64,000 bases of DNA, taken from the NCBI RefSeq assembly GCF_025791835.1, contig NZ_JAOXLP010000010.1:62001-126000 (forward strand). The letters are read 5' to 3'. Below the pieces are notes generated by a model. That model searched no databases. It was not told the origin of the DNA and worked only from the letters and a program-made list of their open reading frames with translations. Positions 2 to 63,921 of this stretch are shown here, one piece after another. The DNA is from Roseomonas xinghualingensis. Lineage in GTDB: Bacteria > Pseudomonadota > Alphaproteobacteria > Acetobacterales > Acetobacteraceae. Each line of letters starts with the position of its first letter. Position 1 is the first letter of the stretch. Position numbers and translations under genes: made by a program.

Positions 2-85
2 TGGGACGGCGAGACGGTGCTGGCGAAGCCCGGCGAAGGCCGATTCGTTCCGCGCCAACATGCGCGCGCGATCGATCTGGCATGA
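2..85 (+). CDS. C-terminal end of an unidentified protein (partial)
   Basis: Reading from base 2 gives 27 residues ending in a TGA at 83-85 that overlaps the next ATG (82-84) in the ATGA pattern used repeatedly in this window. The tail contains the run AKPGEGRFVPR and no recognisable motif. The gene begins outside the window, so no function is assigned. The overlap suggests cotranscription with the two small membrane proteins that follow. Confidence 0.5.
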   Translation, partial: WDGETVLAKPGEGRFVPRQHARAIDLA

Positions 86-258
86 GGCGAGGCCCCTCGC
101 CCACCGCCGTGGCGATCTTCAGCCTGGTGGGGCTGGCCATGGTTGGCCTCATCGTGCTGGGCCTTGGGCGAGGTGGGGTGGGGGTCGCCCATTATGCGGC
201 CGGCGCGATCATCGCGCTGGCCGGTGCCCTGCTGGCGGTGACGATGGGAAAACGATGA
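82..258 (+). CDS. Small membrane protein, unknown function
   Basis: This is a 58-residue protein with two hydrophobic stretches, at about residues 10-30 and 35-55, ending in a basic tail. It looks like a two-helix inner-membrane protein with almost no soluble part. The ATG at 82 was chosen because it overlaps the stop of the preceding frame (ATGA). The frame stays open back to base 1, but that extension is Arg-rich and lacks membrane character. The stop overlaps the next start at 255, so the three genes are probably translationally coupled. No family was recognised. Confidence 0.5.
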   Translation: MRRGPSPTAVAIFSLVGLAMVGLIVLGLGRGGVGVAHYAAGAIIALAGALLAVTMGKR

Positions 259-57605: not shown

Positions 57606-58928
57606 ATGCGCCTAAGGGTAGTGGCCATATTCAGCGTGATGCTCTGCGCCGCGCCTGCCGGTGCGCAGGACATCGCTGCTGGGGAGAACACGCCCCTTTG
57701 CGAAGAAGGTGTTCGCATCGCCGCCGGAACCTGTCTCGCGGGGGAACTGCTGGTCGATGGTTTTGCCAACCTCCGCGGCGGTGTCCGGCGCGGCGTTGCC
57801 GCACTCGTGCTGTTGGAACTGGGCCTGAACGTCGATCTCGGGACCGTTACTGGCATCAAGGGATGGAGCTTCGGTGCCGGTATTTTCGGGATCTACGGGC
57901 GGCAGCCCACTCCAACCCTGATTGGTAGCCTGGCGCCTGTGAGCAGCGCTGAGGCGCTATCGACGCTGAGGCTTTCTGAACTCTGGCTGGAACGCCGCTT
58001 CGATGGCGTGGCTTCAGTTCGCTTCGGGCAACTCGCGGCGGATGCTGAGTTCTTCACGGCGGAGGCGACGGAGCATCTGACCAACGGCACCTTCGGCTGG
58101 CCTCTCGGCATGTCCACCGCCCTGCCATCCGGCGGCCCGGCTTACCCTCTGTCGGCACCGGGCATTCGCCTGGAACTGGGTGATCCCACCGAAGAGTGGG
58201 GGCTGCGCCTGGCGGTGTTCTCCGGAGATCCCGGAGGGCGCTACGGGATCGGCACCGATCCCCAGCGTCACAACCGCTTTGGAACGAACTTCTCCTTCGC
58301 CGGTGGCGCTTTCTACCTCGCGGAGGCTGCCATAGGCGCGCGTCGCCCGGTCGACGGCCAGCCCAGGCCATGGGTGCTGAAGGTGGGCGCCTGGAGGCAC
58401 ACCGGCGGCTTCGATGATCAACGCGGAGATCCGGCTCTCTACACTACGATCGCTTCCGGCATTCGCCCGGACCCGGAAGGCCCCATCCCTCGCCGCCACG
58501 GCAATCACGGATTCTATACGGTGGGCGAGGCGATACTCTGGCGGAACGGGTCGTCTAAGCTCGCGGTATTCGGGCGGATCTCCGCCACCCCGGCGGATCG
58601 CAATCCTCTGTCCTTGTATGCTGATGCCGGCTTTGCCTGGCGAGAGCCTTTCGGGCGCGAGGGAGACACGCTGTCATTCGGTGTGGCCTATGCACGCGCC
58701 AGCGGCGAAGGACGGGCACTGGATCGCGCTTTGGGCCTGCCTCTCCGCGACCGGGAAGTGGTGGCGCAGTTGAACTACGAGTTCCAGGTACTGCCTGACC
58801 GCCTGTATGTGAGGCCCCTGCTCCAATGGGTATCTCACCCCAATGCTGGCGCCCAGGACGATCGCGTGACGGACGGACGGATCCGCGACGCGGTAACGGT
58901 GGGAGTAAGGGTGCGGATTACTCTGTGA
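57606..58928 (+). CDS. OprB-family carbohydrate porin
   Basis: This 440-residue outer-membrane protein has a signal peptide (cleavage near PAGAQ). OprB features are a first block LLELGLNVDLGTVTGIKGWS, then LSELWLERRFDGVASVRFGQ and the EFFTAEATEHLTNGTFGWP segment. The pattern of alternating strands continues to the C-terminal VGVRVRITL, ending without the usual final Phe. The family forms beta-barrel channels for sugars or small polyols. GAGGA lies about 11 bases before ATG 57606. There are no sugar-uptake genes beside it. Confidence 0.85.
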   Translation: MRLRVVAIFSVMLCAAPAGAQDIAAGENTPLCEEGVRIAAGTCLAGELLVDGFANLRGGVRRGVAALVLLELGLNVDLGTVTGIKGWSFGAGIFGIYGRQPTPTLIGSLAPVSSAEALSTLRLSELWLERRFDGVASVRFGQLAADAEFFTAEATEHLTNGTFGWPLGMSTALPSGGPAYPLSAPGIRLELGDPTEEWGLRLAVFSGDPGGRYGIGTDPQRHNRFGTNFSFAGGAFYLAEAAIGARRPVDGQPRPWVLKVGAWRHTGGFDDQRGDPALYTTIASGIRPDPEGPIPRRHGNHGFYTVGEAILWRNGSSKLAVFGRISATPADRNPLSLYADAGFAWREPFGREGDTLSFGVAYARASGEGRALDRALGLPLRDREVVAQLNYEFQVLPDRLYVRPLLQWVSHPNAGAQDDRVTDGRIRDAVTVGVRVRITL

Positions 58929-59037: not shown

Positions 59038-59694
59038 TTACGCTGGGCTCGCATAAAGGTGGCCGCCATGAATTGCCATGGCATGGCTCGCCAGCTCCGA
59101 CACCAATCCATCATCGTGAGATACGAGAAGCATTGCTCCGGGAAAGGTGCGCAAGCTGTTCTTCAGGCGCTGCCCGTGCTCCGCATCAACGCCATTCGTC
59201 GGCTCGTCGAGCAGAAGGACGTCCGGCCGCATGGCCAACAGCCCCGCGAGACAAACAAGCCTCTTCTCCCCGCCTGAAAGGTGATGGCTGATCCGATCGG
59301 CCAAATGACTGATATCGAGTTCCTCAAGAGCCGCATGTGCACGTTCCACGGCTTCCGAATGCGTGTATCCGATGTTCAACGGTCCGAAGGACACGTCCTC
59401 GATAACGGTAGGGCAGAAGAGTTGGTCGTCGCTGTCCTGGAAGAGGAATCCAATGCGGGAACGGAACTTACGGAATTGGTATTCCTCCGTGCAGGTATTA
59501 CCGAAGAGCTCGACGCGCCCGCTCGTCGCGCGATCGAGCCCCACGATGCTGCGCAGAAGGGTTGACTTGCCGGCACCGTTTGCACCAACGATCGCCAGCC
59601 TATCCCGTGTTCCCACGGTGAGGCTGACATCCACAAGCACCGAGATGCCTCCCCGGGCCACGGTTACTTGATGAAGTGCGATTACGTTGGTCAA
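59038..59694 (-). CDS. nikO: Nickel/cobalt ECF transporter ATPase
   Basis: This 218-residue ATPase of the CbiO/NikO group has Walker A GANGAGKSTLLRSIVGL near residue 37, the Q-loop FLFQDSDDQLFCPTVIEDV (distinctive for ECF ATPases), the signature HHLSGGEKRLVCLAGLLAM near residue 135 and Walker B VLLLDEPTNGVDAEH. The start is a TTG at 59692-59694 whose TTGA overlaps the nikQ stop. No ATG lies near the domain start. It is the last gene of nikKMLQO and powers metal uptake. Confidence 0.88.
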   Translation of the reverse strand: MTNVIALHQVTVARGGISVLVDVSLTVGTRDRLAIVGANGAGKSTLLRSIVGLDRATSGRVELFGNTCTEEYQFRKFRSRIGFLFQDSDDQLFCPTVIEDVSFGPLNIGYTHSEAVERAHAALEELDISHLADRISHHLSGGEKRLVCLAGLLAMRPDVLLLDEPTNGVDAEHGQRLKNSLRTFPGAMLLVSHDDGLVSELASHAMAIHGGHLYASPA

Positions 59695-60401
59695 AGCCGA
59701 TCCACCAGCAATGCCATGACGCCCACCCCGGCGACGCACCCGAAGGCGACCCAGTCCCACCGCGTTGGAGATGGCTGGGTGCGGTAGGGGAAGCTCCCCG
59801 TATAACCGCGGCAAAGCATCGCTTCCTCGACCCTTTGTGCCCGATCCAGAGCCCGCACGAGAAGCATCCCAATTAGATTGCCATAGCTGCGCCACGTGTG
59901 CCGGTTCGAGCGCGGCTGGAAGCCGCGCGCACGCATTGCTTCATGCAGACGCTGTGCCTCTGCGTAGAGAATAGAGTGGTAACGTATGGTCATCACGAAC
60001 AGACGGATCAGCCGCTCCGGCACATGCAGGCCGCGCAACGCGACGCCCAGGCGCACGGGTTCAACATTACCGAGAAGTGCCGTTATCAGAAGAACCGACG
60101 ACATGACCTTGCTTGCTATCAAGGCAGTGCGCCAAACGCCTTCCATGCTTGCCGACAAAGGGCCAAGGGTAAACAGCGGCTGCCCGGCCATGGTAAATGG
60201 CACTGTCAGGAAAAGCAGCAGCACGAATGCCTCAACATGCAGGAGCCGCCGCCAGCGACGAGCATCTGGCGCGGCACATGCCACCGCAAGCAGCACGGCA
60301 ATCAGCAGCCCCGCTGACACCGCAAGCGACTGCAGTTGCGATATCTCAGCAACCGCAACAAAGGTTGCAATGAGCCGGAGCCGTAGTTCGGTGGGTGACA
60401 T
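59691..60401 (-). CDS. nikQ: Nickel/cobalt ECF transporter transmembrane coupling subunit
   Basis: This 236-residue membrane protein of the CbiQ/NikQ family has about five helices. The conserved Ala-Arg-Gly motifs appear as AMRARGFQPRSNRHTWRSYG near residue 165 and AMLCRGYTGSFPYR near residue 205. These are the coupling helices that contact NikO. The ATG at 60399-60401 overlaps the nikL stop by one base. It couples ATP hydrolysis to the NikM core. Confidence 0.88.
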   Translation of the reverse strand: MSPTELRLRLIATFVAVAEISQLQSLAVSAGLLIAVLLAVACAAPDARRWRRLLHVEAFVLLLFLTVPFTMAGQPLFTLGPLSASMEGVWRTALIASKVMSSVLLITALLGNVEPVRLGVALRGLHVPERLIRLFVMTIRYHSILYAEAQRLHEAMRARGFQPRSNRHTWRSYGNLIGMLLVRALDRAQRVEEAMLCRGYTGSFPYRTQPSPTRWDWVAFGCVAGVGVMALLVDRL

Positions 60402-60970
60402 CAGCGCCGCCTCGCTCGTGCCCACAGTGCTGTTCCCACAACTCCAGCGATGAAGAACAGACCTGAAAGAACGTCAATGAATCGCAAGCGAGCATCCATC
60501 TGCTCGACCCGTTCGAGTACCGGCCCCACTTGGCGCTGGACCGCAGCTTCAACCAATACGGCAAGCTGCCGATCAGCTGAGGGCTGAAGTGGACTTGCAC
60601 CGGCCTCCGTCAAACTGCCGGCAGAATTGGACGCCGGCGCGGCGCCTGCACCTGCAATCCGGGCAGCCGGCAGCGTGATGGATGCGACATGCGCCTCGTG
60701 GGTATCGACTGTGATGGTGACGTCGGACGTGATAGGCGTGATCAGTTCGAATGCAAAGCGCCCTTCACCATCGGTTGTGCCCGACGCGATGGCCCTCCCC
60801 TGAGCGTCCTTTGCCGTCCACGAACTGCCCCCTGCCCTGCCGCCACCAACGAAGAAGGCGTATCCACCGACGGAATTACCCTGCGCGGCAGCAAACAGCT
60901 TCAGATTGTGGGCGTGCGCAGGCGCGCAGAGCATAACAGCCAGGAGGGCCCCGAGCAGAGCGCGCGTCAT
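60401..60970 (-). CDS. nikL: Nickel ECF transporter accessory subunit (NikL-like)
   Basis: This 189-residue protein has a signal peptide ending at AHAHN and a beta-rich periplasmic domain beginning HNLKLFAAAQGNSVGGYAFF with a GEGRFAFELITPITSDVTI block. It ends in one membrane helix near the C-terminus (LFFIAGVVGTALWARARRR). The layout fits NikL, the membrane-anchored accessory component of NikKMLQO nickel transporters. It sits between nikM and nikQ, overlapping both. Confidence 0.8.
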   Translation of the reverse strand: MTRALLGALLAVMLCAPAHAHNLKLFAAAQGNSVGGYAFFVGGGRAGGSSWTAKDAQGRAIASGTTDGEGRFAFELITPITSDVTITVDTHEAHVASITLPAARIAGAGAAPASNSAGSLTEAGASPLQPSADRQLAVLVEAAVQRQVGPVLERVEQMDARLRFIDVLSGLFFIAGVVGTALWARARRR

Positions 60971-61581
60971 GGCGCCAACGGCCTTAGTGCCTCAGGCTGC
61001 ACACGGCCGAGGAAAGCGACGATGCCTGCCGTGACAAAGCCTTCGCCAATGGCGAGTGGAACATAGGTAGCAATCAGCACCCTGGCGGCCGGCATGTATT
61101 CTGAAGCCGACAGCATCAACGAGAGCGCGACGAGCCCGCCCGTTCCCAGTACCGATAATGCCCCAGCCGCGCCCCCAAGCGCCATCCGCACCGCGCTTCC
61201 GTGCGTATTGCGGATGGCCGGCCTAAGGAGCGCCGCGAAGACAACTCCCGGCAAGGCCAGATTGACGGTGTTGATACCCAGCGTCGTCAAGCCGCCAAAA
61301 CCGAACAGAAGGGCTTGCAGAAGCAGGATCGCCAGCACTGCGGGGAAGGCGCCAGTGCCGAGCATGATGGCCATAATCGCGGAGAGAATAACATGCACGC
61401 TCGACGGCCCCACCGGCACGGCAATCAGGGAGCTGGCAAACGCGGCGGCCGACAGGATGCCTGCCCGTGGGAGCATGCGGTCATCGAGCCGGCGCAGCCC
61501 CAGCCCGACACCGACTGCGGCGATGACGCCACCGCCGATCAAGACAGGCGCGGAGAGGATCCCATCGGGAATATGTGCCAT
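60967..61581 (-). CDS. nikM: Nickel/cobalt ECF transporter substrate-specificity subunit
   Basis: This 204-residue membrane protein of the CbiM/NikM family has the N-terminal metal motif AHIPDGILSAP with His at position 3 and a second His in VGPSSVHVILSAIM at residue 63. About six helices follow. The N-terminus reads Met-Ala-His instead of Met-His. Removal of Met would place His second, as the known nickel-site geometry requires. It is encoded between nikK and nikL and provides the metal-binding channel. Confidence 0.88.
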   Translation of the reverse strand: MAHIPDGILSAPVLIGGGVIAAVGVGLGLRRLDDRMLPRAGILSAAAFASSLIAVPVGPSSVHVILSAIMAIMLGTGAFPAVLAILLLQALLFGFGGLTTLGINTVNLALPGVVFAALLRPAIRNTHGSAVRMALGGAAGALSVLGTGGLVALSLMLSASEYMPAARVLIATYVPLAIGEGFVTAGIVAFLGRVQPEALRPLAP

Positions 61582-61593
61582 CTGAGCCTCATT

Positions 61594-62364
61594 TCAGCCC
61601 ATGTCCGTCGCCTTCACCCAGATCAGGGCACCCTCTTCCACCGGAACTTGATTTCCATCCGGCGAAAGTCGCGGCCTCTCCGCTTCGAGCAGAGCGGCAA
61701 AGCCCCACCATCCGGCTCTCGGTATCGCATAGGTGAAGGTGCCGTTCGCGTCCGCCCTGATGACCTGCGTGGTGAAAGCGTCATTGGGCGCCGCCACCGA
61801 GCCATCATTGACGAACGCCACCTCCACTTCCGCAAAGGGAACCGGCTGGCTCTCCCTGAGGACGACGCCGGAGAACACGTTTCCGGTCCATATGCCAATC
61901 GGGCGGGTGAGTGGCCGGATCTCGACCGGAAGGCCAACCAGCGCGTCCCACCCCTCCCCCGACGCGAAGCTATCGACCACTACCTTGGCGTAGTGAAGGA
62001 TGAACTTGCCCTCGGCCTGTTCCCAATAGGGCTGGGGCTCGACAAAGAAGACCGCCGCGCCGGGTTCCGTAAGATCATGCGTCAGGGTCCATGCCCCTTT
62101 GCCATCGACCGGGCTTCTGACGACCTGCCCGCTCAGATCCGTCTGCCGTCCGCCCTTCAGCACGCCAACGCGCGCCGGCCTCTCCATCTCCATGACTGGG
62201 CCACGCTCGAAGGGGTGGGTGAAGATGAGGCCCAGGGTCACCTGGCCGCCTTGGGGAAGGACGTCGGCGGACGGTATGATCTCCTGAAAATGCGCAACCG
62301 CGGGACTGGCCCATATTACTAAGCCACATAGTCCGAGGCGAAGCGACGACACGAAACCGGTCAT
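61594..62364 (-). CDS. nikK: Nickel ECF transporter periplasmic subunit (NikK/DUF4198-like)
   Basis: This 256-residue protein has a signal peptide (MTGFVSSLRLGLCGLVIWAS, cleaved near AVAHF) and a DUF4198-type beta-sandwich with VTLGLIFTHPFERGPVMEME, then FFVEPQPYWEQAEGKFILHY and the final EGALIWVKATDMG. NikK is the periplasmic accessory protein of NikKMLQO transporters. The His after cleavage and HPFE are candidate metal ligands. The ATG at 62362-62364 is preferred over in-frame starts at 62424 and 62427, because those would run through the NikR operator. It heads the operon. Confidence 0.83.
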   Translation of the reverse strand: MTGFVSSLRLGLCGLVIWASPAVAHFQEIIPSADVLPQGGQVTLGLIFTHPFERGPVMEMERPARVGVLKGGRQTDLSGQVVRSPVDGKGAWTLTHDLTEPGAAVFFVEPQPYWEQAEGKFILHYAKVVVDSFASGEGWDALVGLPVEIRPLTRPIGIWTGNVFSGVVLRESQPVPFAEVEVAFVNDGSVAAPNDAFTTQVIRADANGTFTYAIPRAGWWGFAALLEAERPRLSPDGNQVPVEEGALIWVKATDMG

Positions 62365-62376
62365 GGGAGGGCTCGC

Positions 62377-62404
62377 GTATGAATTTTCGCAATCGGAATC
62401 ATAC
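62377..62404 (-). promoter_or_regulatory. NikR-type operator GTATGA-N16-TCATAC
   Basis: GTATGA (62377-62382) and TCATAC (62399-62404) are separated by exactly 16 bases, the full consensus known for the E. coli NikR operator. The site lies 13-40 bases upstream of nikK and about 105 bases before the divergent regulator gene. It explains how the NikR-like protein next door would repress the transporter. Confidence 0.88.
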
Positions 62405-62509
62405 AAAGATAGCTCTCGCTCCATCAAGTGAATCCAGCAAGAAGTCCAATGTTTAATTTGCGCCTCCGCTGCCGTTACATGAAATCTTCAAATTAGGAGG
62501 AGGGTGCGC

Positions 62510-62983
62510 ATGCAGCGGATGACCATCGCGATCGACGACGAGCTGGCCTCGGCATTGGATTCATTCATGACAAGCACCAGTGCGATTAGCCGCTCTGAGG
62601 CGATCCGCGATCTGGTGCGGCGCGGCTTGTCCGCACGCTCCTCGGCTCCCCCCGAAGCGCAATGTTACGGAATTATCAGCTGTGCCGTCGATCAGTCGGT
62701 CCGAAACCTCGCGGCCCGGGTTCCCCAGGGTCGTCTCGACCGCCATGATCTGGCTATGGCCGCGCTTTCGGTCCCTCTCGATCACACGACATCGGTTGAT
62801 GTCACGCTGATGCGAGGCTCAGTCGGGGACGTCTCGGGCTATGCGGAGACCCTGTTCCTGGAACGCGGTGTCGTTCACGGCGCACTACATCTCATCCCGC
62901 TCGACGCGGATACGGTACCGCATAGCCACGGTCAGGGCTTTCCAAACCGGCATACCCACCTGCGCGTGCGAAGCGGCTTCTGA
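62510..62983 (+). CDS. NikR-like ribbon-helix-helix regulator with altered metal site
   Basis: This 157-residue protein aligns without gaps to E. coli NikR over the first 100 residues. The DNA-binding RHH domain is intact, with MQRMTIAIDDEL (Arg3 and Thr5 kept) and NRSEAIRDL-like SRSEAIRDLVRRGL. In the metal domain, Leu76, Ser87, Pro89 and Ser95 replace the four nickel ligands His76, His87, His89 and Cys95. The C-terminus extends beyond NikR with HSHGQGFPNRHTH (His138, 140, 148, 150). AGGAGG lies nine bases before ATG 62510. It is divergent from nikKMLQO and faces a consensus operator. Confidence 0.85.
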   Translation: MQRMTIAIDDELASALDSFMTSTSAISRSEAIRDLVRRGLSARSSAPPEAQCYGIISCAVDQSVRNLAARVPQGRLDRHDLAMAALSVPLDHTTSVDVTLMRGSVGDVSGYAETLFLERGVVHGALHLIPLDADTVPHSHGQGFPNRHTHLRVRSGF

Positions 62984-63129
62984 TGGCAGCTCACCCTGCC
63001 GAGCCGCACAAGAGCAGGTGGGCGGGTGCGAAGGATTCAAAAAATCTGGTAGCTATTGGTCGCGCATGTATTCAAGCTTGGCCGGATGCACGCAGCCCAC
63101 CATAAGTTCCGGTGAGCGGGAGAGACGCG

Positions 63130-63519
63130 ATGCGGCCATTGGACATGATCTTCGTCGGTCTCGGTGGCGGCACAGGGTCGGTCCTGCGCTGGTGGGTCGG
63201 GAAGATCGTCGGGGAGCGCAATCACGGCAGCTTTCCACTAGGAACGTTCCTGATCAATGTCAGCGGCGCCTTTTTGATTGGCTACCTCTCCGTCCTGTTC
63301 TCGGTGGACTGGCGAGACCGCTTTGGGACCGCACTGAATGCAGGCGTTCTGACTGGCTTTCTGGGGGGGTATACGACCTTCAGTAGCATGCAACTCGACG
63401 CCGAAAAGCTCACCTCCCAGGGGCGGAGCCAATATGCCATTGGCTATCTTCTTGGGTCAGTCGCAGCAGGCTTGGTCGCAGCAGCGCTCGGTGCCAGCTT
63501 GGCACGACTGCAGGGATGA
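63130..63519 (+). CDS. crcB: Fluoride channel protein, first copy
   Basis: This 129-residue Fluc/CrcB protein has four membrane helices. Family signatures are GGGTGSVLRWW at residue 10, the channel Asn in FLINVSGAFLIG near residue 40, and GFLGGYTTFSSM near residue 72 with the Phe-box Phe. It exports fluoride as a dimer. ATG 63130 was chosen for GGGAGA upstream. An in-frame GTG at 63112 is possible. A second, different copy follows after 12 bases, so the channel may be a heterodimer of opposite orientations. Confidence 0.9.
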   Translation: MRPLDMIFVGLGGGTGSVLRWWVGKIVGERNHGSFPLGTFLINVSGAFLIGYLSVLFSVDWRDRFGTALNAGVLTGFLGGYTTFSSMQLDAEKLTSQGRSQYAIGYLLGSVAAGLVAAALGASLARLQG

Positions 63520-63531
63520 GGGCGCGCCAAG

Positions 63532-63921
63532 ATGCTCAACATCATTATCCTGGTTTTCGCTGGCGGTGCCCTGGGTGCCATTCTGCGTGAATTGCTGATG
63601 CTCGGTGTACCTCACCTTTCGGACGGGTTTCCGCTGGATATCCTCGTCGCAAACGTCGGCGCGGCCTTTCTCCTCGGGCTTGCGAGCGGGCTGCACCAGC
63701 GGCGCCTTTTGTCCGACAACCTCAACGTCATGATCGGCACGGGCATCATGGGGGGGCTATCGACCTTCTCAAGCTTTGTTTACGGCGCGTATGTGCTCAT
63801 GACTGCATCCGCCACCGGCATGGTCGTTGCGGTGATCTACCTGCTGGTCAGCTTGGCGCTTGGGTATGGCGCGGTCGTGCTGGGGCTGAGGATCGGCACA
63901 CAGCGCCAGAAGGCGCCATAG
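63532..63921 (+). CDS. crcB: Fluoride channel protein, second copy
   Basis: This 129-residue CrcB protein has GGALGAILRELLM near residue 10, the channel Asn in ILVANVGAAFLLGLASG near residue 40 and GIMGGLSTFSSFVYGAY near residue 72. It is only distantly similar to the copy before it. Tandem dissimilar copies are known to form heterodimeric Fluc channels. The remaining 79 bases of the window show nothing further. Confidence 0.9.
   Translation: MLNIIILVFAGGALGAILRELLMLGVPHLSDGFPLDILVANVGAAFLLGLASGLHQRRLLSDNLNVMIGTGIMGGLSTFSSFVYGAYVLMTASATGMVVAVIYLLVSLALGYGAVVLGLRIGTQRQKAP

Follow-up and report, generated by a model that had tools for sequence, protein, structure and literature searches.

A NikR-type regulator without the His3Cys nickel ligands and with a conserved histidine tail adjoins nickel-uptake and urease genes in Roseomonas xinghualingensis

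Analysis of a 64-kb stretch (64,000 nucleotides) of the Roseomonas xinghualingensis genome, hereafter the window, revealed close to its end a gene for a NikR-derived regulator that is divergent from a presumed target operon, nikKMLQO, with a NikR-type operator in the spacer between them (Table 1). The start codon of nikO is uncertain (the listed open frame reaches 59895), and its product scored 168 bits against TIGR01166, below the cut-off of 211.8. Beyond nikR come two crcB genes (63124-63921) and then the urease genes, which start about 1.3 kb beyond nikR and about 0.3 kb outside the window end. In this cluster, ureC scored above its profile cut-off and a urea transporter above its NCBIfam cut-off, the UreE profile matches of ureE stayed below their cut-offs, and the remaining ure genes, like an ammonium transporter gene, were named by eye from open frames. 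A UreE-like protein of the same genome (L151, 4888-5730) ends in a long HE-repeat tail. CrcB is a fluoride channel, and urease is inhibited by fluoride; the crcB pair, which here lies between nikR and the urease cluster, is found within the urease cluster in Roseomonas marmotae (L166, 27353-28129).

Table 1. Features of the regulator gene, the spacer and the nik operon in the window
Feature	Position	Strand	Basis or remark
NikR-derived regulator, 157 aa	62510-62983	+	Open reading frame
Ribbon-helix-helix domain of the regulator	residues about 1-45
NikR_C/ACT-like domain of the regulator	residues about 50-131		Includes L76, S87, P89 and S95
Tail of the regulator	residues 138-140 (HSH) and 148-150 (HTH)
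NikR-type operator, GTATGA-N16-TCATAC	62377-62404	.	Perfect; nikR-nikK divergent spacer
Sigma-70-like nikK promoter candidate (TTGATG, 18 nt, TATGAT)	62398-62427	-	Weak match
nikK (DUF4198), first gene of the presumed target operon	61594-62364	-	PF10670, E 2.8e-55
nikM (CbiM/NikM substrate-specific component)	60967-61581	-	NF004903, 239 bits, cut-off 193; PF01891
nikL	60401-60970	-	NF058648 NikL family, 159 bits, cut-off 100
nikQ (CbiQ-type T component)	59691-60425	-	TIGR02454, 132 bits, cut-off 111.8
nikO (ECF ATPase)	59038-59838	-	PF00005, 111.9 bits, cut-off 25

Two further observations concern the nik genes themselves. NikK and NikL both seem, by eye, to carry a histidine as the first residue after the signal peptide (...AVA-HFQEII and ...AHA-HNLKLF). 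A DUF4198 protein binds nickel via an N-terminal-His site according to the available part of PMC12537917, although its second ligand, His18, is not found at that count in the window NikK. The nik operon is faced by a convergent OprB-family porin gene (57606-58928). Elsewhere in the genome, a 4.9-kb contig (G000:C113:1-4899, L169) carries a second perfect NikR operator (484-511), a second copy of nikK (82% identical) and a gene for an OprB-type porin (78% identical over the part compared), with identical transposase-like sequence at both of its ends; it may be a mobile duplicate of some of the nickel regulon. Because this relative of the window's porin gene comes after the second nikK, the OprB porin may serve as outer-membrane nickel entry under the same regulator.

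The textbook example of a nickel sensor is NikR, which is defined by its square-planar His3Cys nickel site (H76, H87, H89 and C95). Residues 1-131 of the window protein align without gaps with Escherichia coli NikR (1q5v; phmmer, E 7.8e-23), and its predicted fold matches NikR across the same residues in a fold search. The preliminary description had read from the letters that L76, S87, P89 and S95 stand opposite the four ligands and that the DNA contacts R3 and T5 are kept, and both readings held on this alignment. The NikR_C profile (PF08753) scored 48.1 bits (cut-off 22) and NF002815 scored 111 bits (cut-off 83); another NikR profile, TIGR02793, stayed below its cut-off (107 bits, cut-off 175), as did NF003381, NF002169 and NF001884, and PF01402 fell slightly below its own (19.5 bits, cut-off 20.5). 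No other clear NikR was detected in the genome: the NikR_C profile matched this gene alone, and the sole second match to the protein had an E value of 0.29 and an internal stop. By descent, fold and operator the window protein is a NikR, without the defining feature of the classical nickel-responsive NikR. Source annotations label such ligand-less proteins 'nickel-responsive transcriptional regulator NikR' though the nickel site is gone.

The consensus operator that had been reported beside the gene is indeed a perfect one (GTATGAATTTTCGCAATCGGAATCATAC). It is the only site with at most two mismatches in the window, where 0.36 would be expected at that tolerance; when related loci were base-shuffled, 1.03 Mb of such sequence gave seven sites with two mismatches and none with fewer. 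The nikK promoter candidate is weak: it matches at 9 of 12 positions, and shuffles would yield 0.3 such sites by chance. Its second hexamer falls within the operator. We propose that the window NikR binds this standard operator, over the presumed nikK promoter, and that with enough metal it would shut off nikKMLQO.

To place the protein, we collected homologues: one search returned 255 matches, of which 120 were listed, and a query with a deeper relative returned 72, some of them shared. On a common alignment we chose as the ligand-less clade the 165 rows with S or T at position 87 and neither H89 nor C95, such that the absence of H87, H89 and C95 in these rows is the selection rule itself. 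H76 is missing in 158 of the 165, and seven rows keep it (HSPA, HTPA or HSPS). The rows are not independent observations because most are matches to clade queries and some proteins were fetched twice (e.g. L036/P0137). Left out were copies of the window locus (L001, L022 and L151), repeats (L133 and L134, of L041 and L034), a fragment (L150) and, from the clade count, P0139 (QTPC, which keeps C95), P0142 (MGPA, a garbled site) and the fragment P0191. The ligand-less rows formed one group (SH-aLRT 99) in two trees, both built without the ligand columns (26 of 116 and 35 of 133 rows), and under midpoint rooting of the first tree the clade was nested among mostly alphaproteobacterial and enteric NikRs with a support of 95. 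In the left-out relative P0139, C95 is present and H76, H87 and H89 are absent; from such sequences, H87 and H89 were probably the first to be lost.

The clade retains R3 in 164 of 165 rows (one gap), T5 and E30 in all 165 and D34 in 164; E30 and D34 are side-chain ligands of the interdomain K+ site, as given in the available part of PMC7055735. Because the ligand-less rows form one supported clade in which each of R3, T5, E30 and D34 is missing from at most one of 165 rows, decay is rejected; a pseudogene or chance origin was likewise ruled out, the reading frame, the tail and the operator being conserved over the clade. Of 48 genomes with a NikR_C match in a sample not chosen by similarity to the window protein, 3 had the variant (the window's genome, G501 and G768), and so did 1 of 21, the window's genome, in a second such sample that overlaps the first. 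NikR_C was found in five of 60 relatives, the other four of which, two in the same genus, have all four ligands. That the variant is a spare beside a normal NikR was ruled out as a general rule, as 15 of 15 genomes had one NikR_C match each; one exception is Roseomonas marmotae, whose two NikRs were seen on two plasmids. The full ligand set is also missing from a separate and divergent NikR_C branch (L019-L021, L137, L140 and L144-L146; e.g. VHFS, RHHT), where position 30 is Q in each of the five rows printed; one member, L140, has a perfect GTATGA-N16-TCATAC upstream.

The histidine-rich tail noted at the outset (H138-S-H140 and H148-T-H150) is present and is absent from E. coli NikR; the accompanying claim that it had been gained did not stand. 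An HxH...HxH tail occurs in 164 of the 165 clade rows, the remaining row having a single HxH by the same rule, which bears out the expectation that the tail is conserved among ligand-less relatives. It also occurs, at the same aligned columns, in 66 of 148 NikR rows that have all four ligands, and the clade therefore most likely inherited it; a gain in the clade was ruled out on these grounds. The idea that ligand loss always goes with the HxH pair holds throughout the clade; it was set aside as a general law, since the tailless L023 and L148 speak against it and the independent pairs were too few for testing it. Several NikRs with a partial ligand set (L041, L093/L103, L094/L096, L040 and L097, with HQQR, HRRC, HQHC, HRHC and HHPR) are all HxH...HxH-tailed; L093, L103 and L097 come from metagenome assemblies.

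Residue by residue, C52, H79, H92, H123, H138, H140 and H148 are each present in 165 of 165 clade rows and H150 in 164. The corresponding counts among the 148 four-ligand rows are 110 for C52, 130 for H79, 97 for H92, 118 for H123, 80 for H138, 76 for H140, 92 for H148 and 89 for H150. Within the four-ligand rows the tail goes together with C52 (raw Fisher p 1e-4), H79 and H123 (1e-5) and H92 (1e-14). Once relatedness was controlled for, 5 of the 6 informative pairs supported H92 (p 0.22), which ranked only third among 59 variable columns; no signal was left for H79 and H123, and any trend for C52 was in the opposite direction. Because the association was lost with independent pairs, it was not used to assign metal-binding residues.

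These counts bear on the possibility that nickel is still bound at the old tetramer interface, where neighbours such as H79 of one subunit and H92 of the adjacent one would form the site together with the tail. H79 lies three residues past position 76, and in the predicted structure H92 falls in the hairpin that follows position 89 (strands 82-89 and 94-104), which would suit such an arrangement, as would the invariance of both residues in the clade. Their frequency in NikRs with a normal site (130 and 97 of 148) speaks against a replacement role, and we consider this arrangement very unlikely.

Two monomer models were compared for the position of the tail. In the first (38 alignment rows, mean pLDDT 79.6) the tail is part of a hairpin on strand 121-138, and the second (118 rows, mean pLDDT 90.4) has strand 121-133 and, in the tail, only 151-153; its mean pLDDT was 86 over residues 151-157 and only 73 over residues 141-150, which contain the second HxH. 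The predicted path of the tail thus differs between the two models. Nearly all the matches listed in fold searches stop by about model residue 136, so that the tail is barely covered.

The use of the operator was followed in 16 genomes, 15 of the ligand-less type (LSP-like at 76/87/89, one HSPA) and Roseicella (G792), whose NikR has HQQR. Perfect GTATGA-N16-TCATAC sites were present in 13 of the 15 variant genomes, 14 sites in all, one in each genome and two in the window's genome; the scan of Roseicella gave no perfect operator, and the inverted control pattern was found in 1 of the 16 genomes. All 14 perfect sites precede nickel-uptake genes and 13 of them precede nikK, while the site in Salipiger thiooxidans (G790) precedes genes with the NCBIfam names nikA, nikB, nikC and nikE. 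In two genomes, those of Kaistia hirudinis (G783) and Fuscovulum blasticum (G791), nikR is on another contig than the site, which still stands before nikK; the Kaistia operator has a urease gene about 4.4 kb away, and in Fuscovulum a more distant nik-like cluster lies about 4 kb from nikR, with no perfect site in that 20-kb locus. G768 has a two-mismatch site only, in its nikR-nikK spacer, and G787 has the variant and neither nikK nor a perfect operator.

A perfect operator also lies upstream of a tailless NikR in Sneathiella limimaris (L023, 1489-1887), which has RQPY at the ligand positions. It looks like a singleton: all 15 other matches listed for it have four ligands. Ligand loss together with operator retention therefore needs no tail, and operator retention alone is therefore no proof of metal sensing. 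The Sneathiella protein is consistent with an alternative in which the clade protein is a metal-independent repressor: a fixed network of R75, S87, P89 and F116 would hold the DNA-binding form, uptake would be set by the amount of repressor or by another signal, and the tail would buffer nickel or do something else. R75 and F116 fit this account, being new and fixed in the clade (164 and 165 of 165 rows, against 0 of 148 four-ligand rows for either). The near invariance of the four tail histidines and of H79, H92 and H123 over the 165 rows would be difficult to account for if these residues had no metal-related function, and given that the Sneathiella case is apparently single we regard a metal-independent repressor as rather unlikely.

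To see which metal the context favours, we searched 14 genomes, 13 of the variant type and Roseicella. Urease alpha scored above cut-off in all 14 (13 of 13 of the variant type), NiFe hydrogenase was full-length in four with short matches in two more, and CobN was above cut-off in 10. Profile searches of the window's genome, in which urease adjoins the locus, gave no NiFe-hydrogenase match and no CobN above cut-off. According to the available part of PMC2868824, the nikKMLQO genes in a Brucella urease operon supply nickel for urease activity, as judged from mutants. Nickel is favoured as the regulated metal because of the urease, nikKMLQO and nikABCDE context, together with these Brucella genes and the nickel binding described for a DUF4198 protein. 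A sensor of cobalt or zinc, acting via the tail site on an ECF transporter for that metal, would agree with the frequency of CobN and with the prediction, in the available part of PMC2667541, that some NikK1ML1QO operons near B12 genes are cobalt carriers; moreover, an all-histidine site need not favour nickel. The presence of urease throughout, the make-up of the window's genome, the Brucella transporter and the position of the Salipiger operator before a nikA-B-C-E cluster argue against another metal, which we find distinctly unlikely.

Both kinds of NikR occur in Roseomonas marmotae. On one plasmid, a variant NikR, 65% identical to the window protein, stands beside nikKMLQO and a urease cluster with a two-mismatch site in the spacer, and on another plasmid a four-ligand NikR, whose short tail reads HSHEHAHE, stands beside nikABCDE with a perfect operator. 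The sequences of the pair fit two non-redundant regulators.

E. coli NikR (1q5v, 2hza) is a nickel-responsive repressor of nikABCDE with His3Cys, Q75 and I116 and without a tail, whereas the window protein has no His3Cys ligands, an HxH...HxH tail, R75 and F116. Tailed four-ligand NikRs (e.g. L044, L063 and L098) share with the clade the tail columns as well as H79 (66 of 66), H92 (64), H123 (63) and C52 (59); unlike the clade, they keep H76, H87, H89 and C95. As in the window, the Brucella ure2 locus (ureABCEFGDT-nikKMLQO) ties a nikKMLQO ECF nickel transporter to urease; it is, however, one operon for which the available part of PMC2868824 reports no NikR-binding site found, whereas the window has a divergent nikR and a perfect operator. 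Paracoccus yeei URE type 1 resembles the window in having NikR by urease and nickel transporter genes, and there nikR disruption abolished ureolytic activity, as described in the available part of PMC11578231; the NikR of Paracoccus yeei TT13 (L168), a strain other than those of that study, has four ligands and no histidine tail. The open-licence literature that we searched held no description of a ligand-less, histidine-tailed NikR of this type, nor a study of tailed four-ligand NikRs.

Because the clade lacks the nickel site and yet has a histidine-rich tail and apparent control of nickel uptake by a urease cluster, these sequences suggest that metal is probably sensed in another way. We propose that the clade has lost the square-planar His3Cys site that lies at the tetramer interface, and that metal sensing would now proceed via a second histidine site, one also carried by tailed four-ligand NikRs. 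This site would consist of the C-terminal HxH...HxH tail, docked against the metal-binding domain, with H92 as a probable and H79 and H123 as possible further contributors, and metal bound by the tail, most likely nickel, would be coupled to DNA binding. The available part of PMC7055735 describes a low-affinity NikR site that binds nickel with octahedral geometry; secondary metal sites are therefore not foreign to the family. What the sequences themselves show is descent from NikR, loss of the ligands, a conserved tail along with other conserved histidines, a conserved operator and nickel-uptake genes as targets. That the window protein is, beyond this, a functional nickel-uptake repressor whose sensing has moved from His3Cys to a second histidine site including the tail is an account that we judge about evenly balanced between right and wrong. 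In a broader form, NikRs would comprise two separable metal modules, of which the clade has discarded His3Cys and senses nickel only via the docked HxH...HxH module; we advance this tentatively, as falling a little short of an even chance. The HxH...HxH module itself is carried by a large share of NikRs and is absent from E. coli NikR.

Together, the retention of the operator and of nickel-uptake targets in a clade without His3Cys suggests that this site is dispensable for keeping the regulator there. The histidine tail, present in four-ligand NikRs and not in that of E. coli, is a possible second sensing site, and Roseomonas marmotae, with both NikR kinds in one cell, would offer a direct comparison.
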